In this document: piece after piece, positions 47,349 to 64,000 of the stretch
How the letters are laid out: the number at the start of each line of letters is the position of its first letter
How positions within the stretch are numbered: the first letter of the stretch is position 1
DNA from: Geodermatophilus bullaregiensis
GTDB lineage: Bacteria > Actinomycetota > Actinomycetes > Mycobacteriales > Geodermatophilaceae
Direction: 5' to 3'
DNA length: 64,000 nucleotides
Assembly (NCBI RefSeq): GCF_016907675.1
Contig: NZ_JAFBCJ010000001.1
Location: 1 to 64,000, forward strand
The notes under the pieces: model-generated
What the model was told of the DNA's origin: nothing
Database searches by the model: none
The model's input: only the letters and a program-made list of their open reading frames with translations
Position numbers and translations under genes: made by a program

Positions 47349-48518
47349 CTACAGGGGCGTCTCGGCGATTAGGGTCAGCCCCGTCTGGAGTCGCTCCTCG
47401 TCCAGGCACTTGAGGTGAGCCACGTCGTTCCGTGCGTCGCGCAGCCACGTCACCAGGGCCATCTGCGGGCGTTTGTCCATGCCGGCTCGCTTGCGCATGT
47501 AGTACCAGAGGTCCGCGATTTCGATCAGGTCACCACGGGCCTCCTGGCGCAGACGTTGTGCATGCCCCTGACGGTCGAGCCAAGCCAGCACGCGTTCCCG
47601 CTGTTGATCTAGCAGCGGGAGCAGCGTCGCGGCTTGGGCACGCCAGAGCGCTCGCTGGAGTTGGTCCGGGTCGTGCTTGGCGACGGCGCTGGCGTGCCAG
47701 GTGACGCCCTCGCCGTCCCAGCGGTCGCAGGCACCTGAGGCCCACGCCTCCATGAGCTCCGTGCCCGGTCGATCGTCAGGCGCCGTCCGCACTGCAGGCG
47801 CGGCCGCCAGCAGCTCGGGCTTGGAGCCCGAGTAGTCCAACAGGACGCCGCAGAGGGACTGAGGGCAGCCGTCCCATGCATCGAGAAGGTGCAGCGCCAA
47901 GGTCAGGTCGAAGCGCGCGACCTCCAGGATGGCCGTCTGGCGGGTTGCGTCGGAGCGACGTGGGCTATTGGCGGTGCGCAGCAATAGCGCCGTGTCTAGG
48001 CGGCTGAGGCGACCCCACCAGTGAAGGACGGTCAGGCCGGGAATCTCCGCTGCGTCTCGCGCGTGCCGGCCGGAAGCGACGGTAACGACCTGCACAGGCA
48101 TCGATCCCGCAGGGGCGTTGTGCGCCAAAGCTGCTGCGGCAGCCATGACCAGATTGAGCTCGGCCATCTGCTCCGAGCTCAGCGATGTCGCGTCGATCAC
48201 GAGCAGATGCTCCGCGAGATCAGCTGTGACGAAGTCCTGGACACTGGGGACGTGGTCGGGCAGGGGATGGCCTGCCGCCTTCAGACACTCGGCGACTACG
48301 CAGTCGGTGTCGTCGCGTGTCAGCCGGACCTCGACGAGGCGCCGTGGTGACGGCCGCGTCACCAACTCGGAGAAGAGGTCGGGAGGGCCTCCGTAGTCGG
48401 GAATCGCTACGACGACTGGCTGCCGCCAGCCGGCTTCTCTCAGCGCGCGGTCCACATCCTTGAGGAAATCGCGAGGACCGGGTAACGCCCAGTAGCCGGT
48501 GATGGGGGAGTTGGTCAT
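47349..48518 (-). CDS. Unknown protein coupled to the giant ATPase
   Basis: A 389-residue protein with no recognised domain. The first 150 residues have a Rossmann-like feel (VVVAIPDYGGPPDLFSELV, LLVIDATSLSSEQMAELNLV, MPVQVVTVASGRHARD). They are followed by a helical region (TAILEVARFDLTLALHLLDA, RALWRAQAATLLPLLDQQRE) and a helical C-terminus with LVTWLRDARNDVAHLKCLD, reminiscent of helical domains with an RN...H pattern. ATG 48518 overlaps the stop of the giant ATPase (ATGA). It is the last gene of the leftward operon and probably its partner protein. Confidence 0.75.
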   Translation of the reverse strand: MTNSPITGYWALPGPRDFLKDVDRALREAGWRQPVVVAIPDYGGPPDLFSELVTRPSPRRLVEVRLTRDDTDCVVAECLKAAGHPLPDHVPSVQDFVTADLAEHLLVIDATSLSSEQMAELNLVMAAAAALAHNAPAGSMPVQVVTVASGRHARDAAEIPGLTVLHWWGRLSRLDTALLLRTANSPRRSDATRQTAILEVARFDLTLALHLLDAWDGCPQSLCGVLLDYSGSKPELLAAAPAVRTAPDDRPGTELMEAWASGACDRWDGEGVTWHASAVAKHDPDQLQRALWRAQAATLLPLLDQQRERVLAWLDRQGHAQRLRQEARGDLIEIADLWYYMRKRAGMDKRPQMALVTWLRDARNDVAHLKCLDEERLQTGLTLIAETPL

Positions 48519-51500
48519 CGGCTGCGGTTCCTGAGGGCCGCGGCGAGGAACGGCTCGAGCTCGAACCGCTGATCCTCGCGCGCCGTCGTGAGCTGCAGCG
48601 CGGCGAGGGCCTCGCGGGTGTCCTCACTGGCCGCGTCGCCCACGAGGTCCGACAAGAGCTCCCAGGTGACCGGCTCGCCGATCTCGAGGAGGGCCCGGAC
48701 CACCTCCTGAACGCTCGATGGGCCCCCGAGCGCATCCTCGGGAAAGCGTCCTGCCGCGAGGATCTCGTCCCGTGCTCCCGAGGCGGCAACCGCCCAGGGG
48801 ATCCTCGGTGCCTTCCGTAGGACGCGGTTGAGCACCGCAGGCCAGCCGCCTGTGGCGTTCAGGAGGACCGTGCAGGATGCGCGGTCGAGGTCGAGACGTT
48901 CCTCGCCGACCCACGCCTCGAGTGCCCCTCGATCGAGACGCCGGAGCCCCAACCGAGTGGTGCGCTCAAGGCCCGGCCGCGACGGAGCGAAGTCTGCCCA
49001 GAGGGCAAGCTGCCCAGGGCCGAGCACCATGATCGCGCGCCGCATCGCGGTCCGGGACGACATCTTGTCGACCACCGCCTGCGTCTCCTGCGCGACCTTG
49101 GCTGCCTCCTCCAGGCTCAGGCCTCGGCAGTCTGCTGCGAGGACGACGCGGTCCTCCGCGGCCGCCAGACGTGCCGCCAGCTCGTCCGGGGGGACGTCCG
49201 CGGCGAATGTGATTTCGGACCGGCGAGCTCCGATCTTGGCGGCGACGGCCGCCGCCACCTGCTCGATGCCCAGGGCTGTGCTCCCGCCGACGAGGGTAAG
49301 ACCGGGGGCGTCGACCTCTACGAGGGCGGCCAGTTCCTCCTCGCTCAGCGGGCTGCGGCCACCGTCGGGGAGTGGACGCCGATACAAAGACGCCTGGAAG
49401 CCAGGGGACGGTTGGTGCCCTTCGAAGTCGAGTAGTTCGGCCTCGATGTGAGGTCGACTGCCGAGAAGACGGACGACATTGGGGTTTCGTATGCGCAGGC
49501 GCCCCTCGACTTGGATGACGACGCCCAGACCCAGCATCTCCTCGACCAGCCCGGCGAAGAGGGCCGGCCGCATCGACGAGAAGCCCTCGGGCCACCAGTA
49601 CGCGCAGGCGTCCCGGAGCTCGCCTTCCTCGTAGTCGGCGTTCATCCCCTGCTGCAGGTTGCGCAGAGCCAGTACGAAGGCGATGCAGCGATAACGGTCG
49701 TCGAGATTGATGGTGAGCATGAAGCGCCGGCGCATCTGCTCGCCCAGGTCGGCGTCCTTGTAGACCCGCTCGACGTCCGACCGCTCGATCACCGTCGGTA
49801 TGACACCGCCGCGCCGAGGTGTGGAGAGGAGGTCGCGCAGCAGTGCCTGGCCGAACACCTGGACCATTCCGGCCTGGTAATTCGTCTCCGAGAGCAGGTG
49901 CCACGTGGCGGCGTCACTCAAGGTGTATCCGAGGGCCGAGAGCGGTACTCCCAGCAGTTCTACTGCGTCGGCAGGATCTAGCGGACCGACGTTGACCGGC
50001 TGCTGGGCGAAGTGAGCAAGGGGAACGTTCCTTTGCCGCTCGAACCGTTGCACCTGGTGGAGCCCGGCGAGCACAACCTTGAAGCGTCTGTCCGTGACGT
50101 TCATCAAGCCCCGCAGGCGCTCGACGATGGGAAAGTCCTTGCGAGCGTCGGCGTCGAGGAGGTCGTCGCACTCGTCGAGGAGGACCAGCAGTGTCCTGCC
50201 TTCGACAGCCTGCAGCCAGTTGCGAATGTGCGAGACGGCCGCTTCGCCACGGGCGGTCTTGCTGGAACGTTCGGTAACGACGCCGACGCGCTGCAGCTCC
50301 TCGAGCAGGTCGAGCCAGAACTCGTCAGGATCCCGCCACAGCCCGAGTCCGAGACTCCGGACGTCCATGTAGACCGCGCGCCGATCCCGATCGCGTGCGC
50401 CCTCTACTTCGCGGGCAGCAGCGCGCAGGAGCGCGCTCTTGCCCACCTGGCGGCCGCCGTAGACGAAGCTGCTGCCGCGCGGGTCGAGGACTGCTTCCAG
50501 CTCTCGGCGGCGTCCCCGGAAGAGTTCGGGCGGCACGTTGCCGGCCACGTCGGGCGTGAACGCCGACACGCGCGCGAAGGGCAGTACCAGGTGCTCCAGG
50601 AGCGCGAACGTCGGCGCAGGATAAAAGGCCATCGTCAGGACGACTGCCTCGTCGACGACGAGTATTCGACGCGATGATGCGCCCTCGTCTCGCGCCGCGA
50701 CAGCCAGAGCGTGACGCTGATTGCGGGTGAGCACTCCCCGGTAGAGGACGAGGTGGGGAGAGGCCTTGCGATCGCTGAGGGCGAGACTGACGAGCCGATC
50801 TGCCGACATCTCGCCCCAGACGACGTGGACTCGATAGCGGCCCGCGGCGCCGGATCCCAGCTCGTGCATGACCACCGGCAGGACGGGGCGAGCCTCGAGG
50901 ACGTCGACCGCCAGGTCGGTTCCCTGGGGGCGAGCACCGGGATCGCTCCTCGGCGTGGGGCCCTGCAGTGCCAGGAGCGCCAGGACGGCGCGCAGTCGCC
51001 CGTCGAAGTCGCCCGCCCGCTTGTCGCGGAAGAGGGCACGCCAGGCGTCGAGGGCCTCCGCGTGGCCGCGGCGCATGGCCGCTTCGGCCGGCCCCGGGCC
51101 GAAGGGCTCCAAGGACCTTCCCTCGGTGAGAGCAGCGATCGCCCGATCGAAGGTGTCCGCCCTAGTGGCAGCTTCGATACCGCTCGACCAAAGCTCGCGC
51201 TGCAGTCGCTGATACCCCTCCATGGGCCCGGCGCTGCGCAAGACGCGACCGCGCGACGCGTCCAGGCGCTCGTGGGCGGCTGCGAGGGCGCCGTGTGCCA
51301 GTAGGTCGAGTACCGCTCGCTCGTTGTCCTCGTCGAGTTCCGCGGAGCCGAGCTCGTTGAGCAGGTCGGCCGTGACGTGCTCACGAGCGCGGTCCAGCAC
51401 GACCTCGCTCTCGTCGAGCCGGGTCGAGGCCTTCAGCAGGTCGTCGTCGACGGGGTGCTCGGCGTCGAGGAGCAGCCCGCGGAGGACGACGGCCTGCCCT

Positions 51501-54436
51501 TCCTCGATGGCTCCGGGATACGCCTCCAACTCGGCGAACGTCGACCGGAGGCGGTGGAGCCGGCGACCGATTGCCGCATGGGCAGCGCGGAGGTCGAGCT
51601 CTCTCCGTTCAGCCAGCCGGGTCAGCAGCTCGGGGCTCTCGTCGTGCAGCGCATCGAGCAGTCGGCGGCTTCCGGCGTGGTCCATACGAGCGGCGAAGCC
51701 CTCGTACGCGGTCAAGGCTGTCCTGTACGGCGCCGCCAGCAGGCCGGGGACCGCCGCCTCGGGCACCGCGGACCAGGAGGTCCGGTCGAGGGACACCTCG
51801 AAGACGTACGGGAGCCATTCGTCGAGCACCTGCTCCGGCGAGCGCTCCTCCGCCCCGGGTACTCCTTCGTCGAGACGCCGGACGAGTAGCTCCGTGCCCA
51901 GGACGACTGCGCGGTGCGCGACAGTCTCCTCGGTGCCTGCGTTACCGACGGAGTCTTCGCCCCGGAACTCCTCCAACACCGACGTAGCTGACCGGCGAAT
52001 CTCGACGGCGATGCTGTCGGGACGTCGCTGCGAGTCACTGCTTCTGAGAGCGGCGACCGCACGACACCAGACGTCGACGACGGCCAGCGCCTCCCGGGCG
52101 AGCTCGATGAGCTTGAGTCGGGGATCAGCCACGATCCTCGTGGTGGCTTGCGGACCTCGGAGGCGGCCGTCGGTCTCGTCGATCGCCCGCTCCAGCGTCC
52201 GGTCGTCCTGAAGGGCGAGGGCCGCCCGACGGACACCGTCCATCTGGGCTCGCTGATCGTCGCGGACGGCGACGAGCAGCTTCCCGAGCAGGCCGCCCTC
52301 GGCCATCCAGTCCTGGTACACCCGCGTCGCCCGGTGGAATTTCAGGGTCCGGGCAGGGGCGGTGTCCAGCTGTGCCTCGGCAGCCGATCGGGCATCCATC
52401 ACCTGCCCATCTGCATCCGCTGCATCCGCGGCACCGGGGTGGACAGCGGGGGCAAGCCCCAGGACGAGGCCCTTACGGGCGGCCGCCACGACTGCAGTCG
52501 ACAACTCCCGGAGGGAGGACTCCTTGGGTAGCTGCGGCCCGAGGAGTTCAAGCACGTCCGCTGCGCCGGCAAAGGGTGCGATCGGAGCGGCAAGACACAA
52601 ACCGGCCGCCAGGGCTTTAGCAGCGGATCCAGTGGGCAGATCGACCCAGGCCTGGGTGCGGGTCCACAACGCCGCCGACAGCGGCCCTGCATCGCTTCGC
52701 AGGGCAGCGGCCAGAGCAAGTACTTCCAGTGATGCACCCCAGGCCGCCTCGTGGCCGCGCGCGGCCCATGCGGCGGCACCCATGTGGCCGTCTCCGATCA
52801 GGCGATGCAGGCCCGCCCAGATCGCGGCGGTGGATGGCGGAGCTTCCGTATCACGGACGCTCGAACCCTGTGTCGAAGGCGATTCCGACACCGGATACGT
52901 GGATGTCGGTGGGAGGTGGTGGTCGCGCCATGCGGCGTCGCCGTCTGACTGGGACTGCCCCTGGTCCTCCGTGCGCGATTGGGTCCCTTCGGATGCCGAG
53001 CACTGGTGTCCTCGGGCTGCTGTCGAAGAAGGGGGGGAAGCGGTGTCCCGGTCGGCAGCACCGACGTCGAGTGCGGCCGGTTCGGCGACTTGAAGCGACG
53101 GGGACGGGAGCGCGTCGATCTCCTGCTGGCCTACCGGATCGCCGGTCGTATCGACGAGCTCAGCCGGCGGTGTTGCCTCCACCATCGGCTCGACCGTCTG
53201 CTCCATCGATCTGCCTTCGTCGCCGTCGCGAGTTGGGGCATCGATCGCTGAGGTCGTGGTCTCCACGGCATCGGACGTCGACGGCCACCCTTCCGGTGGC
53301 GCCTCGTCCGCAGACCGCGGCATGGCCTCCAGCCGGAGCTTGCCGGCGAGAGCCAGGCCCAAAACCAGTGGTGAGGTCAGGTCGGACAGCGCCTCGTAGG
53401 AGCCGGCGTCGAGGGTGCGCTCACCGCGGAGGTGCTCGACCAACATCTGTAGAACGGGCGCGGCCTCCAGCCACGCAAGCAGTTGCTCCTCGTCCTCTGG
53501 CGGCGTAGCCGCGCGCCGCAACCCCTCGACTGCTTCGCTGTACTCGGCTGGCCCCTCCACCGAACGCAACGGACGAGCGGCAGCGGCGACACGGTCGCGA
53601 CGGGACACCAACGCGGCGCGCCGCCTGTCCGCCTCGAGTTGCCGCTCGCGCGCTTCTGCCGCCTCGGTTGCCGACCGGACCGCCTCGCCGAACGATGGCG
53701 TTAGGGGCTCCACCAGTTGCACGTCCAGCTGCGAGGCCGCGAGCAAGCCGGCTGCTTCGGTCACCGCCTGGCGAGCCCTCGTCGCGGCGGCGCCCAATGA
53801 GTCCACGAGCTGCTCAGGCACGAGCGCGTCGCTGTGCACGCTCTCCAGGATCTGCCGCGCATCGTCGCCGACCGCCAGCTGCGCTTCAGCGAGCGCATCG
53901 GCGAGAGCTTGCAGCGTGCGGACCACCTCTTGGGGTTCGAGCACGATCCGCTCCCGTGGCTGCGGAGCCGGCTCCGCCTGCTCCTCGCCGTCAGGGTCGC
54001 GAGGCACCGTGGCCGCGGACTCACCGGCTAGCGCTGTCAGAAATGCCCGCGCGGAGGCGGCAGCAGGCTCGTCGAGGTCTTCGGTCACTAAGAGGCACAG
54101 CCGAGCCAACGCCGGTGTGCACCGGGACGCCCACTCGTCCCAGATACGACGGAAATCCAGCACATCCGGGTCGTCCACGGAGTCGCCCAACAGCTCGACG
54201 GCGACTTGATGTGCCGGCTCACTCAAGACCCGGGCAACCTTGTGCTTACCCGTGTCGCCTAGCGCAGCAGCCTTGAACTGGAGCAGCCCGATCTCCTTGG
54301 CACGCCCGGAGACCGTCGTCTTCAGGATGCTCCCGAGCGCCCGACGACCATCCTGGCCGAGATGATGGAGTGCCTGCTTCCAGTCCTCCTGGGACAAGGC
54401 CGTGACGGCTTGTCCAAGCTCACAACCAGCTGTCAC
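48515..54436 (-). CDS. Giant STAND/ORC-like ATPase of about 1970 residues
   Basis: A 1973-residue protein. The first 400 residues are helical, Ala/Glu/Arg-rich, with coiled-coil stretches (EAAEARERQLEADRRRAALV). A Ser/Pro/Thr-rich linker spans roughly 400-550, and helical repeats fill the middle. The ATPase domain is near 1310-1500, with FRGRRRELEAVL, Walker A VYGGRQVGKSALL (about 1325) and Walker B LLVLLDECDDLLDAD (about 1417). A wHTH-like stretch follows, then a second Rossmann-like part (LTLVGGSTALGIEQVAAAVA). This suits a sensor/signalling ATPase. GTG 54436 is chosen because AAAGGA lies 7 bases upstream. No exact family was recognised. Confidence 0.8.
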   Translation of the reverse strand: MTAGCELGQAVTALSQEDWKQALHHLGQDGRRALGSILKTTVSGRAKEIGLLQFKAAALGDTGKHKVARVLSEPAHQVAVELLGDSVDDPDVLDFRRIWDEWASRCTPALARLCLLVTEDLDEPAAASARAFLTALAGESAATVPRDPDGEEQAEPAPQPRERIVLEPQEVVRTLQALADALAEAQLAVGDDARQILESVHSDALVPEQLVDSLGAAATRARQAVTEAAGLLAASQLDVQLVEPLTPSFGEAVRSATEAAEARERQLEADRRRAALVSRRDRVAAAARPLRSVEGPAEYSEAVEGLRRAATPPEDEEQLLAWLEAAPVLQMLVEHLRGERTLDAGSYEALSDLTSPLVLGLALAGKLRLEAMPRSADEAPPEGWPSTSDAVETTTSAIDAPTRDGDEGRSMEQTVEPMVEATPPAELVDTTGDPVGQQEIDALPSPSLQVAEPAALDVGAADRDTASPPSSTAARGHQCSASEGTQSRTEDQGQSQSDGDAAWRDHHLPPTSTYPVSESPSTQGSSVRDTEAPPSTAAIWAGLHRLIGDGHMGAAAWAARGHEAAWGASLEVLALAAALRSDAGPLSAALWTRTQAWVDLPTGSAAKALAAGLCLAAPIAPFAGAADVLELLGPQLPKESSLRELSTAVVAAARKGLVLGLAPAVHPGAADAADADGQVMDARSAAEAQLDTAPARTLKFHRATRVYQDWMAEGGLLGKLLVAVRDDQRAQMDGVRRAALALQDDRTLERAIDETDGRLRGPQATTRIVADPRLKLIELAREALAVVDVWCRAVAALRSSDSQRRPDSIAVEIRRSATSVLEEFRGEDSVGNAGTEETVAHRAVVLGTELLVRRLDEGVPGAEERSPEQVLDEWLPYVFEVSLDRTSWSAVPEAAVPGLLAAPYRTALTAYEGFAARMDHAGSRRLLDALHDESPELLTRLAERRELDLRAAHAAIGRRLHRLRSTFAELEAYPGAIEEGQAVVLRGLLLDAEHPVDDDLLKASTRLDESEVVLDRAREHVTADLLNELGSAELDEDNERAVLDLLAHGALAAAHERLDASRGRVLRSAGPMEGYQRLQRELWSSGIEAATRADTFDRAIAALTEGRSLEPFGPGPAEAAMRRGHAEALDAWRALFRDKRAGDFDGRLRAVLALLALQGPTPRSDPGARPQGTDLAVDVLEARPVLPVVMHELGSGAAGRYRVHVVWGEMSADRLVSLALSDRKASPHLVLYRGVLTRNQRHALAVAARDEGASSRRILVVDEAVVLTMAFYPAPTFALLEHLVLPFARVSAFTPDVAGNVPPELFRGRRRELEAVLDPRGSSFVYGGRQVGKSALLRAAAREVEGARDRDRRAVYMDVRSLGLGLWRDPDEFWLDLLEELQRVGVVTERSSKTARGEAAVSHIRNWLQAVEGRTLLVLLDECDDLLDADARKDFPIVERLRGLMNVTDRRFKVVLAGLHQVQRFERQRNVPLAHFAQQPVNVGPLDPADAVELLGVPLSALGYTLSDAATWHLLSETNYQAGMVQVFGQALLRDLLSTPRRGGVIPTVIERSDVERVYKDADLGEQMRRRFMLTINLDDRYRCIAFVLALRNLQQGMNADYEEGELRDACAYWWPEGFSSMRPALFAGLVEEMLGLGVVIQVEGRLRIRNPNVVRLLGSRPHIEAELLDFEGHQPSPGFQASLYRRPLPDGGRSPLSEEELAALVEVDAPGLTLVGGSTALGIEQVAAAVAAKIGARRSEITFAADVPPDELAARLAAAEDRVVLAADCRGLSLEEAAKVAQETQAVVDKMSSRTAMRRAIMVLGPGQLALWADFAPSRPGLERTTRLGLRRLDRGALEAWVGEERLDLDRASCTVLLNATGGWPAVLNRVLRKAPRIPWAVAASGARDEILAAGRFPEDALGGPSSVQEVVRALLEIGEPVTWELLSDLVGDAASEDTREALAALQLTTAREDQRFELEPFLAAALRNRSR

Positions 54437-54637
54437 CAACTCGTCCTTTCCCCCGCAGTCAGCGGAGCGTCGCACATGCCGTCCGGAAAACGGAGTACCG
54501 AGACGACCGTGCCTCGCCGGCGGACGCAGTCAGCCGCGAAGCAGACGAGGAAGGGACAACGAGCGCTCAGAGCGCTCGCGAAGGGTGGCTGGCATCCACT
54601 CGACGGTCCTTCCGCTCGACAGCGCCAGGGCCTTCGG

Positions 54638-55885
54638 TCAGGCGTGGTCGAAAGAGCCAGCCGTCGTGACCCATGCCGCCAAGGTTGCGCTTGGGACCAG
54701 GTCGATGGAGCCCAGCGCCGTCATGGTGCGAGTCCCGAGCGGCACCACGCCGTCGGGACCGACGACGGCAACTGCGGCCAGCCGGTTGACCTCGGCCAGT
54801 TCGGCCAGATAGGTCATCCCTTGGTGGTAACCGTCTCTGACGACGTACGACAGGTCATCCGTGTACTTGCACTCGATCGCGAGCGCCGCCTGGCCGGGCA
54901 ACACGACGGCCAGGTCTGCGCCCACGGGTTGCGAGGCTGACGGCAGAGGACGCGTCAGGCGGCGGTAGGGACTGGACCAGCCGTAGTAGCTCCAGAGGCC
55001 CGCGGCTTCGAACCATATGTCCCACGTTCTTCCCCACCGGTCCACGGCCTTGTGGGTTGGTCCGCTACCCAATCCCAGGGGGCGAAGGCTCGTCACCACG
55101 CCGCCTGCCGAGCGCAGCGCGAGCAACACGACCCCGAGACACCCGAGATGGAACAGGCGTCCCCGAACGCCCGGATCCGGCAGGAGCATGCGCCGAGCCA
55201 GCTGTTCGAGATTGCGGTCTTCCTCTCGCAGGACCGCAGCGAGTCGCGCGAGAGCGTTCCACGGGGTTCCGGCTCGACTGGCGGCTGCCACTGTGCCCCG
55301 ATCTGGACGGGCGTCCACTTCCGAGGGCAGGTGCGCCCGCGCGTCCAACAGTGCGCGGACCTGACGTACCACGAGTGCATCCAAGTGGGGAGCAACAGTG
55401 CATGCGTCGACGCGAACTTGCTCCAACCGGTCGGCCGTCCAGCAAAGCACCTCGGCGAGGTTTCGGTCGGGGACCCTGCGGCGTTCACGACCCACGAAGC
55501 CACTGGTGGGTGGCCACCCGGCCAGGCGAGTGCGCGGCCAGTCGGTGCGACCCGAGGGCACAGCGGTGACGCTCCTCGCGGTCAGGACCTCTGCGGGGAG
55601 AGCATCGAGCCACGCAGCCGGCGCGGTCGGCAGGCGTCGCATGAGAGGGATGCACTCTTCGAACAGGTGCCGCCGAGCGCGGCGGCGAACGTCGTCCGGG
55701 CTCCATTCGTCAGGGCCGGGTGCAGCCGCGACTGCGGAGTACAGCTGGCCTTTGCCCGTGTAGCTGCTCAACACCTCCAATAGTCCATGCCAGGGCAGAG
55801 GCGCCCCAGCGTGTAATCCGCCTTCCGCGCCGGTCGAGATGGTGCTCAACGCAGAGCGGTCAGTTGAGAGCGGACCCAGTCCCAC
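54638..55885 (-). CDS. PD-(D/E)XK nuclease, McrC-like partner
   Basis: A 415-residue protein. The C-terminal region has the nuclease pattern VGADLAVVLPGQAALAIECKYTDDLSYV (Asp near 328, E-C-K near 338) followed by the helix GYHQGMTYLAEL, as in McrC-type endonucleases. The N-terminal 280 residues are helical and unrecognised. It lies directly downstream of the McrB-like ATPase and overlaps it by 40 bases if GTG 55885 is used. A TTG at 55849 that overlaps the ATPase stop is an alternative start. A 201-base gap separates it from the giant ATPase gene. The pair is read as McrBC-like. Confidence 0.72.
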   Translation of the reverse strand: MGLGPLSTDRSALSTISTGAEGGLHAGAPLPWHGLLEVLSSYTGKGQLYSAVAAAPGPDEWSPDDVRRRARRHLFEECIPLMRRLPTAPAAWLDALPAEVLTARSVTAVPSGRTDWPRTRLAGWPPTSGFVGRERRRVPDRNLAEVLCWTADRLEQVRVDACTVAPHLDALVVRQVRALLDARAHLPSEVDARPDRGTVAAASRAGTPWNALARLAAVLREEDRNLEQLARRMLLPDPGVRGRLFHLGCLGVVLLALRSAGGVVTSLRPLGLGSGPTHKAVDRWGRTWDIWFEAAGLWSYYGWSSPYRRLTRPLPSASQPVGADLAVVLPGQAALAIECKYTDDLSYVVRDGYHQGMTYLAELAEVNRLAAVAVVGPDGVVPLGTRTMTALGSIDLVPSATLAAWVTTAGSFDHA

Positions 55886-57534
55886 TGTGCGCCCAGTACG
55901 TCCTCGTCAGCGAGGCGGAGGCCGAGAGCGTCGAGCTGCTCTTCTTCGAGACGCGCCAACCAGGTTCCGACTGCTGTCACATAGCCCTCGGCTAGCAGTT
56001 CGGGCACCTCGTGGTACTCCGACTCGTCACCCGCCAGATAACTGGGGATCTCCAGGAATGCGGCGGGCCCGAGGACCGCCCCCTCGACCTCGCGGTGGGC
56101 GGCGTAGATCGCCGTGAGGATGTCAGCGATCTTGACCCGCAGAGCATCGGGCAACACCGAGAGGCGACCGGCAAGGGCCACGCCGAATCCGTCCGTGTCT
56201 GGCGCCCCGACCGGCACATGCGCGAAGCGGCGTCCCAGCGCGAGGCCGAACTTGAACACGCGATGGGCGTCGAGAGCGTTGTAGGTGCCCAGCATTCTCC
56301 ACTCGCTTCCGGCGAGATACTGCACCGGCTCGGGGCTGGGAATGTCTGACCGGAGGTTCTCCGCCCCCGAGACAGCACAGTGCGCTGCCTCGGCCCAGCC
56401 CAAGGTGATCGGGCCGGCATCGGGCTCCCCACTGGTCCGACCCACCTGCACTGGCTGGCCGGACAACCATGTCAGCAGCGGACCGAAGACGCGGTCGAGA
56501 TCGGCGCGGTTGGCCTCGTCCAAGACCAGCCACCTGTCCTCGGCGACGGCACGCAACACCGCCCCGGGGACGAAGCGGAGTCGACCGCGGTCGTCGATCG
56601 TCTCGCCGCCCACCAGTTCGCGCGCTGTCCAGGACTCGTCCGGGGTGACCAGCGTCGCCTCGTGCCCCGTCGCCATGCCCACTACCGAGGGGTCGGCTAC
56701 GACATCGGCGAGGAGTTCGCTCACCAGTTGACTCTTCCCCGTCCCCGGGGGGCCCACCAACATCACCGCGGGCCGGCCGGCGACCGCTCGCCGCAGCATT
56801 CGCCGAGTGCGCGGATCGAGCGTCAGACGTGTGACCGGGACGGAGCCGGGAAGCGTGGGAGGGAGGACGCTGGGACCCGTCGTTAGGTCCTCGACGTGGC
56901 CCTCGACCTCGACCGGCTCGGTTCCCAAGCTGGTGCGAAGCGCTTCCAGGCCATCTGCTGTGGCGCGTCGTTGCTGGACTGCCCACGAGGCGTCCCAGGT
57001 CCCCCCTGACCCGCGGCAGACGAGAAGAACGGAGGGGGAGAGGCCGGCCCTGACCCGGGCAATCGCTGCCCGTTGAGTGGCCGGCACCTCGGCGGATTCG
57101 GGCACCACACCGACGAAGACCTGCGCCGACCGGGCTCGTTGGGACTGGTTGGCGCGCACGCTGAAGTTGCCGGCCTTGCTGATCGTGGCCGCCACGACAT
57201 CGTCGGCGCTCAGTCCCATCAAACTCGCCAGGAAAGTCTCGAGACGCGCGAACTTCGTCGTGCTAGGCGCCGCCAGGTCGACGCTGCCGATCAGCTCGTC
57301 GAGCGTGGACTGTGCGTTGGGCAGCTCGTGCTGCGGTGCCGTCACGGCTGGATCGTCTCCGTTGGTCTCGATGTCGTTCGGCTCGGCGCGGGAGGCCTCT
57401 GGTCGTTGCGCGCGCTGCGACCGGCTATCGCTGGTCTTCGCCGGGACCACGGGAGGCCGGCGGCGGAGGCGACCGACGCGCTCGACTCGATCAGACCCTC
57501 TGTTCGCTGGACGTCGAGCTGCCTGTCCCTCCAT
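55846..57534 (-). CDS. McrB-like AAA+ ATPase
   Basis: A 562-residue AAA+ protein of the MoxR/McrB kind. Walker A is VMLVGPPGTGKSQLV (about 256-270), Walker B is RWLVLDEANRADLDRVFG (about 333-350), and the sensor/arginine region is GTYNALDAHRVFKFGLALGRRF (about 416-437). The McrB-like DEANRAD and GTYN motifs are clear. The N-terminal 200 residues carry a strand-rich part (VRANQSQRARSAQVFVGVVP), possibly a substrate-binding domain. In McrBC the ATPase translocates DNA and activates the nuclease. ATG 57534 is chosen over GTG 57555. It is divergent from the sigma-factor gene. Confidence 0.83.
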   Translation of the reverse strand: MEGQAARRPANRGSDRVERVGRLRRRPPVVPAKTSDSRSQRAQRPEASRAEPNDIETNGDDPAVTAPQHELPNAQSTLDELIGSVDLAAPSTTKFARLETFLASLMGLSADDVVAATISKAGNFSVRANQSQRARSAQVFVGVVPESAEVPATQRAAIARVRAGLSPSVLLVCRGSGGTWDASWAVQQRRATADGLEALRTSLGTEPVEVEGHVEDLTTGPSVLPPTLPGSVPVTRLTLDPRTRRMLRRAVAGRPAVMLVGPPGTGKSQLVSELLADVVADPSVVGMATGHEATLVTPDESWTARELVGGETIDDRGRLRFVPGAVLRAVAEDRWLVLDEANRADLDRVFGPLLTWLSGQPVQVGRTSGEPDAGPITLGWAEAAHCAVSGAENLRSDIPSPEPVQYLAGSEWRMLGTYNALDAHRVFKFGLALGRRFAHVPVGAPDTDGFGVALAGRLSVLPDALRVKIADILTAIYAAHREVEGAVLGPAAFLEIPSYLAGDESEYHEVPELLAEGYVTAVGTWLARLEEEQLDALGLRLADEDVLGAQWDWVRSQLTALR

Positions 57535-57798
57535 CCGCCGGAGATTTAACTGCACGTGGCCGCCGGAGCCGCTGAAGACGCCGCCCGGGCCTCGCCCGGT
57601 GCCTCCGATGTCGCTCGTCGTGCCGGCAACCCGATCGCCCCCGGGACAGCGCCCGCATCATGCGGTGGGCATCAGCTCGACACGGTGACCAGGCGCGGTG
57701 TTTTGGGCCCCTGGTGTCAATTCGTACCTCGGACTGCCGATTCTGTCGGGGAGGGGACTTATGGTCCTCCTCCGTATCGGTGTCCTGAGCGGGGGTGC
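57535..57798. promoter_or_regulatory. Divergent control region of the defence-like array
   Basis: 264 bases separate the leftward McrB-like operon from the rightward sigma-factor operon. A less GC-rich patch with GGTGTTTTGGG and GTCAATTCGTACC (about 57697-57727) is the best promoter candidate. Because a sigma factor is encoded on the right, autoregulation from this region is likely (inference). No clear repeat was seen. Confidence 0.4.
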
Positions 57799-59565
57799 AT
57801 GTTGGACGCTGGGAACAGCCCGCAGCACGCCCGTGCCGCCGAGCAGCTACGCGCGGAGATCGTTCGGCTTGCGGCCGAGCTGGGGCGGATGCCGACCTCG
57901 GCGGAGCTGCGCCACCTGTTGCGTGTCCAGTCGATGGACGCCGAGACATTGGTGGAGACTCTTGCCGCTGCGACCGGCTCTTCCCGGCCAGCGGAGAGCC
58001 GGGCCGGGGTAGGAACTGGGGCCGGCGGACGTGCACGGCCCGTTCAGCCCGCGCTGCCTCCTCGCGCACAGAGGTCGACGCCATCGTCGACCTCGCCTAC
58101 CAATTCGCCCACGTCCTTCACCCCGGCCGTCCTGGACGCGCCGCATCTCGGTGGCGCAGCCGCCGGGAGCAGTGCACCGGAGGCCAAGAGCGACTCGGAC
58201 GTTTGGGACGACGGTGGCGATCCCTTCGCGATCCCGCCGGAGCCGACCCGGGCTACCCGGTCCGACGACGATCCCTTGATCGCCCAGGCTGTCGAGGACC
58301 TCCATGACGACTGGCTGCGCATGGGTGGACAACTCGACGAGCGGACGGTTCAGCAGCTCGTCGTCCGTCGCCAACTGACTGGCGCCCAGGCGAGCGAGGT
58401 GCTCCTGCAGCTCGACGAGCTGGGCGTGGAGGTCAGTTCCAGCAAGGGCCGGCATGCCGACGAGGCCGCCGCAGCTGGAGAGGCCACGGAGACCGGTGTC
58501 AGTGCGCTGAAGGTCTACCTGCGGGAGATCGGTCGGCACCGCCTGCTCTTCGCACACGAGGAAGTGCAGCTCGGAAACGCTATCCGCGCCGGGCAGGAGG
58601 CACGGTCGCGCCTCGCTGCCGCTGACGTCACGCGTCGGGAACTGCCGCACCTTCGTCGTCTGGTGGCCGCAGGAGAGAGAGCCCACGAGGACCTCGTCCG
58701 GGCCAACCTGCGGTTGGTGGTCTCCGTCGCGAAGCACAGACGTTATTCGTCGGCGGGCGTCGAGCTGGAGGACCGCATTCAGGACGGCAACGTGGGTGTG
58801 ATGCGTGCCGCCGAGAAGTTCGACCCCAGCATGGGCAACAAGTTCTCCACGTATGCCACATGGTGGATCAGGCAGTCCATCGAGCGAGGGATCGCAGACC
58901 GTGGAGGACTCGTCCGCCTGCCGGTGCACGCCCATGAGAAGCTCGTCCGCCTTCGCCGTGTCCTACGCGATCTGCGCGTCGAGTTCGGGCGTGTGCCAGA
59001 GCCGGCGGACCTGGCCAGGGAGCTCGACTGCACTGTCGAACTGGCGAAGGATCTTTTGTTCTGGAACCAGGGGCTCGTGAGCCTGGATCAGCCGGTAGGA
59101 GACGAGGACATCACGCTGGGCGACCTGCTCGCGGACGAGGCTGACCAGGACGGACGTGGGGATCCCCAGGAGCGTTTGGTCGCTGTGGCCCTGAAGAAGG
59201 ATGTGGCGGCGCTACTCGCCGCCGGTCTGTCCGACCGGTCGCGGTGGATCATCACCGAGCGCTTCGGTCTGGACACCGGAGACGACGGGCGGACATTGGA
59301 CGAGATCGGGGCCGGCCTGGGGGTCACCCGAGAGCGGGTCCGCCAGATCCAGGGCAAGGCCCTCACGAGGCTGCGAGGGCATCCGAGGTGTCTGGCTCTG
59401 TACGAGTACTTGATCGATCACTCACGGACGACACCCGTCCCCAAGCTGGTCTCGGAGGACGAGGCCGAGGCCGGGGAAGGGGTAAAGCGCAAGCGAGCCC
59501 GTCGAGACGGACGGCCCGACAGCCGGAGCCTGGCGAAGTGGAGAACGGTTGATGGCAACACCTGA
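57799..59565 (+). CDS. RpoD-like sigma-70 factor with extra N-terminal region
   Basis: A 588-residue sigma factor. Region 1.2 (VSALKVYLREIGRHRLLFAH) is near 233, and region 2 is near 297-379 (LVRANLRLVVSVAKHRR, FSTYATWWIRQSIERGIADR, VRLPVHAHEKL). Region 4 is near 479-527 (WIITERFGLDTGDDGRTLDE, GVTRERVRQIQGKALTRLR). Residues 1-230 replace region 1.1: a helical part (AAEQLRAEIVRLAAELGRMP), a Ser/Thr/Pro linker and an acidic helical part. ATG 57799 follows GCGGGGG. The stop lies 14 bases inside the DrmA-like gene, so the two are translationally coupled. A primary-type sigma in this place is very unusual. Confidence 0.9.
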   Translation: MLDAGNSPQHARAAEQLRAEIVRLAAELGRMPTSAELRHLLRVQSMDAETLVETLAAATGSSRPAESRAGVGTGAGGRARPVQPALPPRAQRSTPSSTSPTNSPTSFTPAVLDAPHLGGAAAGSSAPEAKSDSDVWDDGGDPFAIPPEPTRATRSDDDPLIAQAVEDLHDDWLRMGGQLDERTVQQLVVRRQLTGAQASEVLLQLDELGVEVSSSKGRHADEAAAAGEATETGVSALKVYLREIGRHRLLFAHEEVQLGNAIRAGQEARSRLAAADVTRRELPHLRRLVAAGERAHEDLVRANLRLVVSVAKHRRYSSAGVELEDRIQDGNVGVMRAAEKFDPSMGNKFSTYATWWIRQSIERGIADRGGLVRLPVHAHEKLVRLRRVLRDLRVEFGRVPEPADLARELDCTVELAKDLLFWNQGLVSLDQPVGDEDITLGDLLADEADQDGRGDPQERLVAVALKKDVAALLAAGLSDRSRWIITERFGLDTGDDGRTLDEIGAGLGVTRERVRQIQGKALTRLRGHPRCLALYEYLIDHSRTTPVPKLVSEDEAEAGEGVKRKRARRDGRPDSRSLAKWRTVDGNT

Positions 59566-62500
59566 GGACCAGCCGCTGGACGTTGCGGCCGGTCGCTTCC
59601 TCGACTGGCTCGATCAGGCCGTCACGGCAGCCGGCCGCGGCGACGGTCTGGAACGTCTCGACGTCGATCCGGGGGCCACCTTCTGGCTGGGGCGACTCGC
59701 CAGCGAGGAGGAGGTCCAGAACAGCGTTCTGGGCGACCGTGGGGAGCGACTCGACCCCTGTGCCATTGGCATGAGGCTTCGGCCTACCGGCGCCGGTCCC
59801 TGGAGCATGGACGTCACGGTCCAGATGCGCGCTTGGCTGCGCGATCCTCCGGGCGGAGCCGCCGACCCGCGTGGCCCCTGGGTGCGAAGCGACGAGGTCG
59901 CAGTGACTCTGCCTGTCAAGGTCGAGCCGACCGAATCGACCGTCGAAGGCCGTCGGCGGCTCACCCAGGCACTGAGAGACGTCGGAGCCGACGGGTTGTC
60001 TGCCGAGGTCAGGGTCGATGTCGAAGAGCGGGACGGCGTGCTGGAGTTGGTCGTCCAGCTGGTGAACACCAGCCCGGAGCAGCATCCGGTCCTCAAGGAC
60101 ACGCACCTGTACGAGACCGTGCTGCAGGTCCGCGGCCTGGACACAACTCCGTTCGAGCTCGAGCAGCTTCCTGACTCCTTCCGCTACGACCGCCGGATCC
60201 CGGCCTATGGCATCAACGTCGGTATCGCGTTGCTCGACGAGACCCCGCAGGGCTTCCGCACCACTGACACGGTCACTGTCACCACCTATCGGCCGACGTT
60301 CTGGAACAGTTCTCGCCCCGAGCCTGACCTCCGGTTTTCTGTCCTAGCCGAGGACTGCCTTCCGCCGATGCGGGCACTCGTGGCCGCGCTTCGCGAGTAC
60401 GACGAAGAGCACTGGTCCGATCAGACCCTGGAGACCCGGGCGGGGGTCAGCGGTTGGACGGCCGAGACGATCGCGGAGGCCCGGGAAGCAGCCCACGAGG
60501 TCTTGGCCGAGCTCTCTCGCCTGGAAACGGGTCTCCAGTTGCTAGAGCAGGACGCTCAGCTACGTCGGGCCTTCCAGTTGATGAACAACGCCATCGAGCT
60601 GAGTGCCAACGGTCGTGGGTACGACAGGTGGCGTCCGTTCCAGATCGGGTTCCTGCTGCAGACCATCGGCTGTCTCATCGACAGCAACCATGACGCAGAC
60701 GTCGTCGACACGGTCTGGTTCGCCACTGGTGGTGGGAAGACGGAGACCTATCTGGGCCTCCTGGTGACCGCTGCCCTCCACGATCGGATCACCGGCAAGT
60801 CGAGTGGCCTGACCGCCTGGTCCCGCTTCCCCCTGCGCCTGCTGTCCCTTCAGCAGACTCAGCGATTCGCCGACGCACTGGCCGGCGCCGAGTTGGTGCG
60901 TCGGCGCGCCGGAATCCGCGGTGCCCCGATCAGCCTCGGCTTCCTCGTAGGCAAGGGGGGGACGCCTAACAAGATCGTCCCGCAGGCGACCGACGACGAC
61001 CCTGATCCCGACAGCCCGGGGATGCCCGACCGATACCAGGTGCTGTTGCACTGCCCCTTCTGTCGGGGGGACTTGAACATGCGGTTCGACCGCAGGTTCT
61101 GGCGCCTGGCACATGAGTGCCCGAATGAACGTTGCCCGTGGCCTGAGCGCTCGTTGCCTGTCTATGTCGTGGACCAGGAGGTCTTCCGGTTCTTGCCGAC
61201 CGTGGTCCTGGGCACGCTGGACAAGGCCGCCAGCCTTGGGCTCCAGGCGGCCATGCGGGGTCTCGTCGGCCCTCCGTTGGGGATCTGCAGCGAGCCGGGG
61301 CACGGGTACTGCTACGCGCCGCGCAGCGCCCGCCCCAATGGCTGTCTGGTCCCCGATTGCACCGGGCAGCGACGGGAACTCCCCATGCCGAGGAGCCGAT
61401 ATGCGGCCACCCTCCGGTTGCAGGACGAGCTGCATCTCCTGCGGGACAGCCTGGGTGCGGTCGACAGCCACTACGAGAGCCTGCTCGATCACCTGCAAGG
61501 CGACCTGCAGGGTCCGCCGAGCAAGGTGATCGCCTCCAGTGCGACGCTCACCGGCTACCAGCGACAGGTGGAGGTCCTCTACCGGCGTCACGGCAGGGTG
61601 TTCCCGCAACCCGGCCCTAGGACCGGCGAGTCGTTCTGGACCCGACCATCCGTTCAGCCCCTCCGGCGTTTCGTCGCCGTGGCCCCGCGTGGTGTCACGC
61701 TCGAGCACGTCACCGACCGCACGGTCGATGTGATGCAGAAGTCTGTCCGGCGCCTCGTCACCGAGCCCGCTGAGGTCTGTGCAGAAGCCGGCATCGATCC
61801 AGCCCATGCGAGTGCGCTTCTCGGCCTGTACGGCACTGACGTGATCTACGGGTCCACGCTCTACGACGTCGAGGCCGCCGAACGAAGCCTGAGCAGCAAC
61901 AGCACCGTCGAAGGTCCGCTTAACAGCGTCCAGTTGACCGGACAGACCGATTTCGACGACGTCCGACAGATCCTCGATGAACTGGAGAAGCCCCAGGACG
62001 ACTTCTTCCAGCGCATCCACGTGGTGGCGGCGAGCAGCATGCTGTCCCACGGCGTCGACGTCAGCCGCCTGAACGTCATGGTGATGCTCGGCCTGCCCCT
62101 CGGCACAGCGGAGTTCATCCAGACCTCCGCCCGAGTCGGCCGCCGCTATCCGGGGCTAGTCCACGTGCTGCACAAGATCGGGCGCGAGCGGGACGCTCAG
62201 GTGTTCAGGCAGTTCGGCGCGTTCGTCACCCAGGGGGACCGGTTCATCGAGCCGATCCCGATCACACGCCGGAGCCGGCGAGTGCTGCGGCTGACACTGC
62301 CGGGCATAGTCGAGGCGCGCCGCCTCGCCCTGCAGGAGCCTCGTGCAGTCAACCAGCGCCTGACCACCGTGCGGGCTCTGCGTGACTTCGTCCGCGACAA
62401 CGGGATCTCCGCAGCGTCGGAGGCGCAGGTGATCGCGGCGGCGCTCGGGTTCGAGGGGCCCGTCGACGAGCTCCTGCGTGACGAGATCCGCATCTGGTTG

Positions 62501-62623
62501 GGCGGCTACTTCACCAACATGCAGGATCCGGCTCTCGCTTCGAAGCTGTCGCCGGATGTCCTGCCCGACCGCCCCATGATCTCCCTGCGCGACGTCGAAG
62601 CCAGCGCCCCGATCCACGACTGA
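59552..62623 (+). CDS. DrmA-like (DISARM-type) superfamily 2 helicase
   Basis: A 1023-residue helicase. Walker A is VWFATGGGKTETYLGLL (about 390-406), the DEXH box is LQDELHLLRDSLG (about 623-635), motif III is ASSATLTG (about 659), and the C-terminal motifs are SSMLSHGVDVSRLNV (about 828) and QTSARVGRRYPG (about 856). WFxTGGGKTE and DELHLLxxSLG are typical of DISARM DrmA. A Cys cluster (CPFCRG...CPNERCPW, about 505-530) lies between the helicase halves. The N-terminal 380 residues are strand-rich and unrecognised. ATG 59552 overlaps the sigma gene. Likely role: nucleic-acid remodelling in phage defence (inference). Confidence 0.87.
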   Translation: MATPEDQPLDVAAGRFLDWLDQAVTAAGRGDGLERLDVDPGATFWLGRLASEEEVQNSVLGDRGERLDPCAIGMRLRPTGAGPWSMDVTVQMRAWLRDPPGGAADPRGPWVRSDEVAVTLPVKVEPTESTVEGRRRLTQALRDVGADGLSAEVRVDVEERDGVLELVVQLVNTSPEQHPVLKDTHLYETVLQVRGLDTTPFELEQLPDSFRYDRRIPAYGINVGIALLDETPQGFRTTDTVTVTTYRPTFWNSSRPEPDLRFSVLAEDCLPPMRALVAALREYDEEHWSDQTLETRAGVSGWTAETIAEAREAAHEVLAELSRLETGLQLLEQDAQLRRAFQLMNNAIELSANGRGYDRWRPFQIGFLLQTIGCLIDSNHDADVVDTVWFATGGGKTETYLGLLVTAALHDRITGKSSGLTAWSRFPLRLLSLQQTQRFADALAGAELVRRRAGIRGAPISLGFLVGKGGTPNKIVPQATDDDPDPDSPGMPDRYQVLLHCPFCRGDLNMRFDRRFWRLAHECPNERCPWPERSLPVYVVDQEVFRFLPTVVLGTLDKAASLGLQAAMRGLVGPPLGICSEPGHGYCYAPRSARPNGCLVPDCTGQRRELPMPRSRYAATLRLQDELHLLRDSLGAVDSHYESLLDHLQGDLQGPPSKVIASSATLTGYQRQVEVLYRRHGRVFPQPGPRTGESFWTRPSVQPLRRFVAVAPRGVTLEHVTDRTVDVMQKSVRRLVTEPAEVCAEAGIDPAHASALLGLYGTDVIYGSTLYDVEAAERSLSSNSTVEGPLNSVQLTGQTDFDDVRQILDELEKPQDDFFQRIHVVAASSMLSHGVDVSRLNVMVMLGLPLGTAEFIQTSARVGRRYPGLVHVLHKIGRERDAQVFRQFGAFVTQGDRFIEPIPITRRSRRVLRLTLPGIVEARRLALQEPRAVNQRLTTVRALRDFVRDNGISAASEAQVIAAALGFEGPVDELLRDEIRIWLGGYFTNMQDPALASKLSPDVLPDRPMISLRDVEASAPIHD

Positions 62624-62632
62624 GAGCCGATC

Positions 62633-64000
62633 ATGACCGACCTGGGTACGCGCTCCGGATCCCAGATCCTCCGCACCTTCCTGCCCCAGCAGACCGCCGA
62701 CCTCCGCCGGGGCATCTACCGCGTCGTCGAGTGGACCAGCGCCCAGCCGTTGGCAGTCGATCCCGATGTCATTCGCCGCCGTCTCCTCCGAGAGGTCCGG
62801 CCGTGGGAGCAGGCCGGCCTCGACAACGGCGTCGCCGCCGACCTCCGCAGTGGCGCGCGGATCGAGGTCGTCGAACTCGACGAGCGTCGCGGCGTCACCG
62901 TCGAGCGGTATCCCAACGTCTGGGTCTGTGACACGTGCAAGCGCATCGGCAAGCGTGCCGACCGTGCGTGCAAGTGCGGCGCCCAGCGGTGGGGGCAGTT
63001 GCACTTCGTCGGCTTCCACTCTTGTGGGGCAGTTGTCGAGCCCTTCATCCGGCGCTGTCCGGCTCACGACGACGTACGGCTCGTGGCTCCACGCAGCGCC
63101 AAGGCGTCCGACATCCGGTTCGTCTGCCCCACGTGTCAGCAGGAAGTCATGCGAGGGCTCGGCTTCAACCGGTCGTGCCCCGGCTGTGGACAGGGCGCCA
63201 TCTCCTGGAACGTGCACAAGGCCCGCAGCGTCTATGCACCTCGCGGCGCCGTGCTCGTGAATCCGCCGCGCCCCGAGCGCATGCGCGACCTCCTTGCGGC
63301 CGGGGGCGCCCGCAAGTCCCTGGAGTGGGTGGTTCAGGGCATGACGGCACGGAGCCCTGAGACGATGCAGGGCCGTCCGACTCGAGACGCCTTCCTCGCG
63401 AAGTTGCTCAGGGACGGCTTCGGCGAGGCCTTCGCGCGGCAAGCGGCCGACCTGGCACAGACCGGGGGAGAGCTCGCAGCAGACGACGCACCGGAATCCG
63501 TGACCGGCTTGGACGATGCCCAGCGCGCCGAGGCCGAGAACGAGGCCCTCGACATCGCCACGGCCCTGTCCGAGTCACGCATCACCACAGGCGACCTCAT
63601 CGGTGCCCCGGTCGACAGCGTTCTCGCTCATCGCTACGCCGACGACTATCCGGCAGCTCTCAGGACCGCCGGACTCGTGGATGTCGAACTCGTCGAGCGC
63701 TTTCCGGTCCTCAACATCATGTACGGCTACACCCGTGGAGGCGGCGAGGCTGGAGCCACCCACCTCGTGCCCTTCCGCTCTCGCCGGGGGAACGGCTACC
63801 GGTTGCACGGTGATCTCGCTGAGACAGAGGCCTACTTCGTCAGGCTCGACCCGGTGAGGGTCGCGATGTGGCTGTTGCAGCGCGGCCACCAACTGCCGGG
63901 CTTCGATGCGACCGCAGGTCCCGCAGCCGCCAGAGCCGAGCTTTTGCGAGCTACCCGCATGCCGCTGCCTGGCGACCCTCGTCCTCAGCCGACCGTCGGA
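62633..64000 (+). CDS. DrmB-like (DUF1998) zinc protein, cut by the right edge
   Basis: The frame starts at ATG 62633, 9 bases after the helicase stop, and is still open at 64000 (456 codons). Cys pairs CDTCKR and CKCG (about 99-116) and CPTCQQ...CPGCGQ (about 165-187) suggest two zinc ribbons. A DUF1998-like part follows with LVERFPVLNIMYGYTRGGGE (about 352-371). In DISARM, DrmB sits next to DrmA and carries DUF1998. A protein of this kind next to a DrmA-like helicase supports a DISARM-related core. The C-terminus and later genes (for example a DrmC-like or methyltransferase gene) lie beyond the window. Confidence 0.82.
   Translation, partial: MTDLGTRSGSQILRTFLPQQTADLRRGIYRVVEWTSAQPLAVDPDVIRRRLLREVRPWEQAGLDNGVAADLRSGARIEVVELDERRGVTVERYPNVWVCDTCKRIGKRADRACKCGAQRWGQLHFVGFHSCGAVVEPFIRRCPAHDDVRLVAPRSAKASDIRFVCPTCQQEVMRGLGFNRSCPGCGQGAISWNVHKARSVYAPRGAVLVNPPRPERMRDLLAAGGARKSLEWVVQGMTARSPETMQGRPTRDAFLAKLLRDGFGEAFARQAADLAQTGGELAADDAPESVTGLDDAQRAEAENEALDIATALSESRITTGDLIGAPVDSVLAHRYADDYPAALRTAGLVDVELVERFPVLNIMYGYTRGGGEAGATHLVPFRSRRGNGYRLHGDLAETEAYFVRLDPVRVAMWLLQRGHQLPGFDATAGPAAARAELLRATRMPLPGDPRPQPTVG

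Follow-up and report, generated by a model that had tools for sequence, protein, structure and literature searches.

The first 64,000 nucleotides of contig NZ_JAFBCJ010000001.1 of Geodermatophilus bullaregiensis (hereafter the window) carry, at their right end and running past it (57799–64372, forward strand), genes for a primary-type sigma-70 factor, a DrmA-like helicase and a DrmB-like protein, in that order. This triad is best read as a variant of the anti-phage system DISARM: the MZA system already offers an example of a defence operon with a sigma factor, and what is new is the sigma–DrmA–DrmB trio together with the damage promoter predicted ahead of it. The trio stands in this order in 20 of 21 loci gathered through close DrmA homology alone, so the coupling is real, and an undescribed relative of DISARM, as a preliminary description made from the letters of the window had proposed, remains the best fit.

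The triad and its conservation

The helicase matches the PADLOC model of DrmA (E 8e-94) and carries the motifs ATGGGKTE, DELHLL, SSATL and ARVGRR, as fits a DrmA-type superfamily 2 (SF2) helicase; it also matches the NCBIfam model DISARM_DrmAS at E 5e-100, yet with 336 bits against a cut-off of 950. The full drmB gene product matches PADLOC DrmB (E 7e-31) and has the four-cysteine motif C-x5-C-x(n)-C-x2-C found in 20 of 20 triad DrmBs; on the NCBIfam model DrmB_fam it reaches 49.5 bits of a cut-off of 240, and the Pfam DUF1998/MZB model gave no match to it. The preliminary description had named a primary-type sigma gene overlapping that of a DrmA-like helicase and followed by the gene of a DrmB-like DUF1998 protein. 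Pfam, PADLOC and Foldseek bear out this arrangement, and the third gene keeps its DrmB identity on the PADLOC match and the DUF1998-type four-cysteine site. Its assignment of the pair to DISARM-like families holds in that the best matches are DISARM models, and fails at the curated NCBIfam cut-offs for DrmA and DrmB. Extending the contig to the right of 64000, as it had suggested, added the last 372 bases of drmB and completed the gene.

The sigma reading frame is already open from GTG 57556, and a start at ATG 57799 fits the promoter-like site upstream (Table 1). In the window, sigma and drmA overlap by 14 nucleotides (nt) with the ATG start of drmA or by 17 with the TTG start. Across the 20 intact triads a start/stop overlap of 4 nt is possible in 13 (an earlier start is also open in L049 and L053), and in all 20 the nearest drmA start is within 16 nt of the sigma stop. 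Because the genes overlap or almost touch, translational coupling of sigma and drmA is suggested, an arrangement that would favour matched production of the two proteins.

The 21 loci comprise three genomes out of 98 relatives, 16 genome-contig loci and two plasmids. A near-full-length DrmA (>1400 bits) is present in three of the 98 relatives, the window genome included, each time with the trio. The genome-contig scan by DrmA used two peptide patterns, which more distant triads would escape, and returned 16 loci, all 16 with sigma directly upstream and DrmB directly downstream (the L049 contig starts just before the sigma gene). Their hosts are Dactylosporangium, Plantactinospora, Salinispora, Pilimelia, Saccharothrix, Prauserella, Actinopolymorpha, Micromonospora, Kineococcus, Kutzneria, Dietzia and a Rhodanobacteraceae bacterium, so that triads span Actinomycetota and Pseudomonadota. 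Of the two plasmids with a long DrmA match (46–51% identity), that of Roseomonas has the trio and that of Burkholderia aenigmatica (L042) is the exception: its DrmA is split in two, DrmA and DrmB are separated by an IS3 element, and a NERD helicase and the sigma gene follow on the other strand. Viral contigs scanned with the DrmA alignment through two peptide patterns yielded no relative.

The association also holds when approached from the sigma factor. A profile of the 21 triad sigmas scored 599–749 bits in exactly the three of 98 relatives that carry this DrmA, with 411 bits for the next best (up to 15 candidates scored per genome). Among 396 genomes of the phylum, a sample that shares genomes with the 98 relatives, only G000 and G072 scored high with the sigma profile (599 and 749 bits; next 411; up to three candidates per genome), and the same two carry this DrmA at ~2100 bits, with the next at 372 (up to two candidates per genome). 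Had homologues of this sigma lain mostly away from such helicases, the proposed link would have failed; high scores confined to DrmA-bearing genomes (3/98 and 2/396) speak clearly for it. Left outside the 21 loci were weaker DrmA relatives, below about 40% identity: 20 of the 98 genomes, 42 of 44 plasmid records (one, H3, was opened) and four of the 396 genomes. No triad-type sigma was found in any of the 20 relatives with only other DrmA-like matches, nor by tblastn with three sigma queries in eight weaker-DrmA loci (L036–L039, L043 and L072–L074, of which L073 is short), nor in 17 further rows of the DrmA tree, all from the 98 relatives, for which the whole-genome sigma search stands in. The Roseomonas sigma, searched against plasmids, hit 183 records; among the 15 matches listed, two were the known loci and 13 were sigma genes at 36–46% identity, counted on the sigma match alone. 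Together these results support inheritance of sigma, DrmA and DrmB as one cassette.

In a quick maximum-likelihood tree of 45 DrmA rows, the 20 intact triads form one clade with 100% support in the Shimodaira–Hasegawa-like approximate likelihood ratio test (SH-aLRT), the two Pseudomonadota rows lying outside a 98% group of the other 18; the program warns of long branches meeting at the join with L036 and L037. L071 (G288) was excluded from the tree as the same record as L043, and rows L009 and L038 are identical. Five of the six nearest other loci show what stands in the slot directly before drmA. DrmE_C is over the Pfam cut-off in this slot in L036 (49.9 bits), L037 (50.7) and L072 (66.6) and under it in L043 (21.4) and L074 (15.2), and the sixth locus, L073, is cut off at the slot. 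Since the slot holds a DrmE-type gene in five sister loci, the sigma factor seems to replace DrmE in a class-2-like DISARM, and the module is probably of class-2 ancestry.

Class 2 DISARM consists of DrmA, DrmB, DrmC, DrmE and DrmMII. The DrmE-type protein of L036, used as a single tblastn query, had no match in the 21 loci; a DrmC-type protein, likewise a single query and a weak test, matched only at L034, in a neighbouring canonical-looking DISARM. With neither DrmC nor DrmE found at the triads by one query each, full DISARM membership is unsupported; DrmC reportedly appears non-essential (PMC9142583). At L034/L039 (genome G027) the triad adjoins, on the opposite strand, an apparent class 1 DISARM with drmC-, drmB-, drmA-, methylase- and drmD-like pieces.

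Table 1 Positions of the cassette features on the contig
Feature	Position	Strand	Basis or remark
Predicted RecA-NDp/PafBC-type damage promoter, CTGTCG-N11-TATGGT	57743..57765	+	56 nt before sigma ATG
Primary-type sigma-70 factor, 588 amino acids (aa) from ATG 57799	57799..59565	+	Open reading frame, Pfam, NCBIfam, Foldseek
Extra N-terminal sigma module, aa 9-60, three predicted helices, region 1.1-like	57823..57978	+	Structure model, HH profile comparison
Sigma region 1.1, aa 157-212	58267..58434	+	HH profile comparison
Sigma regions 1.2 to 4, aa 236-538	58504..59412	+	Pfam, structure model, residue check
DrmA-like SF2 helicase, 1023 aa (ATG 59552) or 1024 aa (TTG 59549)	59552..62623	+	PADLOC, NCBIfam, helicase motifs
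DrmB-like protein, 579 aa	62633..64372 (window ends at 64000)	+	PADLOC, NCBIfam, cysteine motif

The sigma factor and its predicted promoter

Pfam sigma-70 regions 1.2, 2, 3 and 4 are all over cut-off in the window sigma, and a Foldseek search with its AlphaFold model finds SigA chains from RNA polymerase complexes, with mycobacterial and streptomycete chains among the top hits. The model is good inside the domains, with an overall mean predicted local distance difference test (pLDDT) score of 69.5 and a predicted template modelling (pTM) score of 0.33. The N-terminal ~230 residues, described before as unusual, resolve into an extra module resembling region 1.1, a low-confidence linker and a region 1.1 (approximate limits in Table 1). 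The profile of the latter matches the N-terminus of SigA from relative G072 at an HH probability of 95.9 and had no match in an alignment of three SigAs headed by the genome's own SigA (E 0.49). The extra module resembles region 1.1 at an HH probability of 86.5, scoring 28.5 where none of 60 column shuffles exceeded 18.4. Because this module and most of the linker are missing in the four most distant sigmas (L041, L042, L056 and L058), the part common to triad sigmas runs from region 1.1 to region 4.

We assessed contacts with core polymerase, melted DNA and the −10 and −35 elements in E. coli sigma70 residue numbering. D403, Q406, Y430, W434, Q437, R441, E585, R588 and Q589 are invariant in all 21 triad sigmas, R584 and W433 are kept in 20, the sigma finger is retained in part, and in 16 an E or D stands in place of T440. 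With regions 1.1, 1.2, 2, 3 and 4 and these promoter-contact residues, the protein belongs among the primary sigma-70 factors (group 1/2), judged by sequence. It should form an active holoenzyme with SigA-like promoter choice, and since the core-, −10- and −35-contact residues are kept, ordinary SigA promoters rather than a private regulon are expected, with some shift in promoter preference possible from the change at position 440.

Upstream of the sigma gene, the pattern [CT]TGTCR-N11-TANNNT occurs in 10 of 20 loci, the window included, and in the strict TTGTCR form in eight, although the sigma start is uncertain for some loci in this count. When the spacing was varied from 6 to 16, the only value other than 11 to give any locus was 14 (one locus), and elsewhere in these loci the pattern occurs five times in ~1.01 million strand positions. 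The published RecA-independent damage promoter (RecA-NDp) reads tTGTCRgtg-8 nt-TannnT (PMC5656591), and PafBC acts through sigma adaptation, its promoters being served by the housekeeping holoenzyme (PMC10693628). The pattern at the triads agrees with the published one except for the gtg. The window site fits TGTCR-N11-TANNNT and, as CTGTCGGGG-N8-TATGGT, matches a relaxed form of TTGTCRGTG-N8-TANNNT. A LexA-like box, GAACNNNNGTTC, lies 24–25 nt further upstream in nine of 20 loci, against ~0.2 occurrences expected per 23-kb locus; ten loci have neither element, among them L034, L055 and the distant L041, L056 and L058. The same GAACNNNNGTTC recurs within the sigma coding region of L048, L049, L050, L053 and L057, at about +1335 to +1410, where it is probably a matter of coding conservation. 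A promoter set private to the sigma factor was also sought; neither a simple −35/−10 scan nor an 8-mer count in the region ahead of sigma turned up a motif specific to it, and they pointed instead to the LexA-like and RecA-NDp sites.

The window genome holds 30 sites of the promoter pattern against one for a reversed control pattern. We read 20 of the 27 sites outside the window region, six by Pfam and the other 14 by eye or without identification; the six Pfam-checked genes behind them encode a PD-(D/E)XK nuclease, Pup, SRAP, SbcD, a RecQ-like helicase and a NAD-dependent ligase. Tandem WYL genes fitting pafBC lie at 141–142 kb, ~7 kb from the Pup gene. A site with full fit to the consensus lies at 74108–74130, eight bases ahead of an ATG, before the genome's cytosine methylase (dcm) and vsr genes, and the promoter type shared by dcm-vsr and the cassette implies that damage from phage infection would raise both. 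The preliminary description had imagined a sigma dedicated to transcribing its own array; a PafBC-type operon promoter in 10 of 20 loci and SigA contact residues at all positions except 440 point the other way. Another RecA-NDp-type site lies within the window at 20599–20621 (−); genome-wide, others precede two near-identical small genes (L104 and L113) and genes that by eye resemble DUF222 genes (L109, L110 and L112).

A proposed mechanism and its alternatives

We propose a damage-inducible DISARM-type module whose DrmE slot has gone to a dedicated sigma factor of the primary type, described in five steps of which the first three are supported by the sequence evidence above. Sigma, DrmA and DrmB are inherited as one cassette, with translational coupling of sigma and drmA suggested; damage from phage infection would raise the cassette in the window and nine further loci, and dcm-vsr in the window; and the sigma factor would bind RNA polymerase and open SigA-type promoters. 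Fourth, sigma, matched in amount to DrmA, might bring DrmAB to promoter complexes, where melted DNA supplies single strands. Fifth, cytosine methylation by the associated methylase might mark self, leaving unmarked DNA to be attacked by DrmAB, with Vsr where present. The fourth step is suggested by biochemistry: the DrmAB complex of DISARM binds DNA that has a 5′ overhang of 7 nt or longer, has no sequence preference and is restrained by a trigger loop (PMC9142583), and because DrmAB needs single-stranded DNA and a sigma factor can open promoters, sigma and polymerase could provide it with melted DNA. The first three steps jointly with a role in defence seem to us very probable. Loading of DrmAB by sigma at promoters of foreign DNA is a tentative proposal that we hold rather doubtful, and the fuller version, in which sigma is a targeting subunit that opens promoters of the incoming genome and passes the single strand to DrmAB so that unmarked host-transcribed replicons are attacked, is somewhat less likely again; for all the steps together we regard the case as evenly balanced.

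DISARM has to recognise foreign DNA without the help of a target sequence, and a constant sigma partner whose polymerase and promoter contacts are intact points to transcription of the invader by the host as a possible cue, an idea testable with three genes. The predicted damage promoter would add a switch-on signal for an actinobacterial defence module, namely single-stranded DNA via PafBC, with LexA in some loci; according to a 2023 paper, a WYL protein regulating phage defence had yet to be described in this phylum (PMC10693628).

Several observations weigh against the proposal. The promoter pattern was counted on the loci where it was first noticed, 10 of 20 loci are without it and 11 of 20 without the LexA-like box, and the nine loci with both form one DrmA clade and are not independent; the window site departs from the published consensus with C at the first base and GGG for GTG. 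PADLOC DrmE gave no match to the five sister-slot proteins. In the Burkholderia locus DrmA is broken and sigma stands on the opposite strand behind DrmB. The window dcm-vsr pair is ~8 kb from the cassette with other genes between, and neither methylase nor Vsr was found in the searched stretch of three Salinispora loci and of L034, so self-marking by a linked methylase would not be general. The role of the cassette in defence is deduced from homology and neighbours, contact of sigma with DrmA or DrmB is our supposition, and the DrmA fold model is poor (mean pLDDT 54.7), which precluded comparison of the DNA groove and trigger loop.

The main rival to a sigma that serves DrmAB is one that serves transcription. 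Phages often disable the host sigma factor with anti-sigma proteins, and the triad sigma could be a fast-evolving stand-in for SigA, of the same promoter specificity, that escapes them and keeps defence and repair genes transcribed during infection. The SigA-like contact residues and induction through the predicted damage promoter suit this idea, as does sequence divergence: among three genomes the triad sigma core is 47–49% identical and the SigA core 98–100%, as expected under conflict (DrmA 64–66%, DrmB 57–59%). A general stand-in sits less easily with a sigma tied strictly to one DrmA clade and overlapping drmA instead of accompanying varied defence genes, and no second conserved promoter appeared as its target in a consensus and 8-mer scan limited to the region upstream of sigma. 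We give this explanation a real but minor chance.

A damage-inducible role in repair or in the control of mobile DNA is unlikely. It would liken the helicase to MrfA/YprA of mitomycin repair and Vsr to its part in mismatch repair, and it can draw on the function of YprA/MrfA in repair (PMC12458937), on a predicted promoter of the kind common to repair genes and on Vsr in 13 of 21 loci. Set against this, DISARM models are the best for DrmA and DrmB in both PADLOC and NCBIfam, in a comparison without MrfA/YprA sequences, and the cassette is surrounded by defence genes (ShosTA-like, McrBC-like, CHAT and Dcm-Vsr), is rare (2/396 genomes) and occurs on a plasmid. Less probable still is a sigma that reads private promoters and turns on its own operon and neighbours. 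Alternative sigmas commonly control their own operons, but here all 21 triad sigmas share Q437, R441, R588 and Q589 and 20 of them keep R584, and 10 of 20 loci have an operon promoter of the PafBC type, a kind served by the housekeeping holoenzyme (PMC10693628). That the sigma gene lies beside drmA by accident is refuted for practical purposes by 20 of 21 loci across two phyla and by the reverse test with the sigma profile.

Neighbouring genes and known systems

By tblastn over the stretches fetched, 15 of the 21 loci have a cytosine methylase, 13 have Vsr, 11 have a DrmD-like SNF2 helicase and 10 have a type IIG/DrmMI-like methylase. Most often the order is dcm, then sigma-drmA-drmB in divergent orientation, then convergent vsr, drmD-like and IIG genes. 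Three Salinispora loci (L046, L047 and L051) have the damage promoter and LexA-like box and are without methylase, Vsr or DrmD in the stretch. In the window genome, dcm and vsr lie at 72.4–74.1 kb, ~8 kb right of drmB; the methylase is 54% and 49% identical to those beside the triads of L055 and L058, and its best PADLOC model is MTase_II (429 bits), with 68.5 bits at best for DrmMII (best 25 of 54 families).

The window cassette sits among ShosTA-like, McrBC-like, CHAT and Dcm-Vsr genes. Two ShosT-like genes (43027–44133 and 46164–47192) flank a ShosA-like gene (44699–46198), whose start region contains a 15-nt tandem repeat at 45845–46024; apart from this one, the repeats in 18000–64000 belong to short families of two or four copies. 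The gene at 48515–54475 (−) encodes a protein of 1986 aa that has an AAA domain, and the last third of this protein is 33–37% identical to proteins of L036 and L037 (the DrmE–DrmA loci); judged by this likeness, it may be a DISARM partner persisting near the sigma variant. Divergent from sigma, 54638–57555 (−) encodes an AAA_5 protein of 569 aa and one of 415 aa that has no Pfam match, a pair that by eye is McrBC-like; another pair of this kind follows beyond the right end of the window, at 69125–72336. Downstream of drmB, a TPR-CHAT protein at 65108–67252 of the genome (L002:9108-11252) matches Csx29 weakly (41 bits, cut-off 300). ARAGORN found no tRNA gene in the window.

The papers listed by our literature searches, mostly from outside subscription journals and without a further paper, announced in PMC11090510, on branches of McrBC of which one accompanies a DISARM-like system, contained no account of a sigma factor together with DrmA and DrmB. 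DISARM is the closest known system: triads have DrmA and DrmB homologues in operon order, with DrmB as a separate gene, and the cytosine methylases scanned from the triads L052 and L041 score 342 and 275 bits on the DrmMII model. The triads differ from DISARM in having a sigma factor in the DrmE slot, often with Vsr nearby, and in missing the NCBIfam DrmA and DrmB cut-offs.

A 2025 survey of YprA helicases names the systems ARMADA, BRIGADE and TALON (PMC12458937). ARMADA combines a YprA-family helicase, a Vsr-type nuclease, a BrxHII-like helicase and a large methylase (PMC12458937), and 10 of 21 triads resemble it in having a DrmD/BrxHII-like helicase and a type IIG/DrmMI-like methylase downstream (by tblastn, with names taken from L049 only). 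However, the ARMADA YprA has a fused C-terminal Vsr and DUF1998, whereas the triads have separate DrmB and Vsr genes, and in the accessible text of the survey the word sigma occurs only in a supplier's name.

With MZA the triad shares a primary-type sigma-70 factor with a long N-terminus within an anti-phage operon (NF041931 name; PMC9523054). Identity with its sigma factor, MzaA, was considered and rejected: the window sigma reaches 242 bits where the cut-off is 800, less than the 357 bits of the genome's own SigA on the same model. As for the partners MzaB–E, PADLOC showed no Mza match for 14 neighbouring proteins (for the methylase, among the best 25 of 54 families). The preliminary idea of a sigma factor in an anti-phage operon thus has a precedent in MzaA (PMC9523054), and because primary-type sigmas now appear in two apparently separate settings, MZA and the triad, the recruitment of sigma factors by immune systems may be a general theme.

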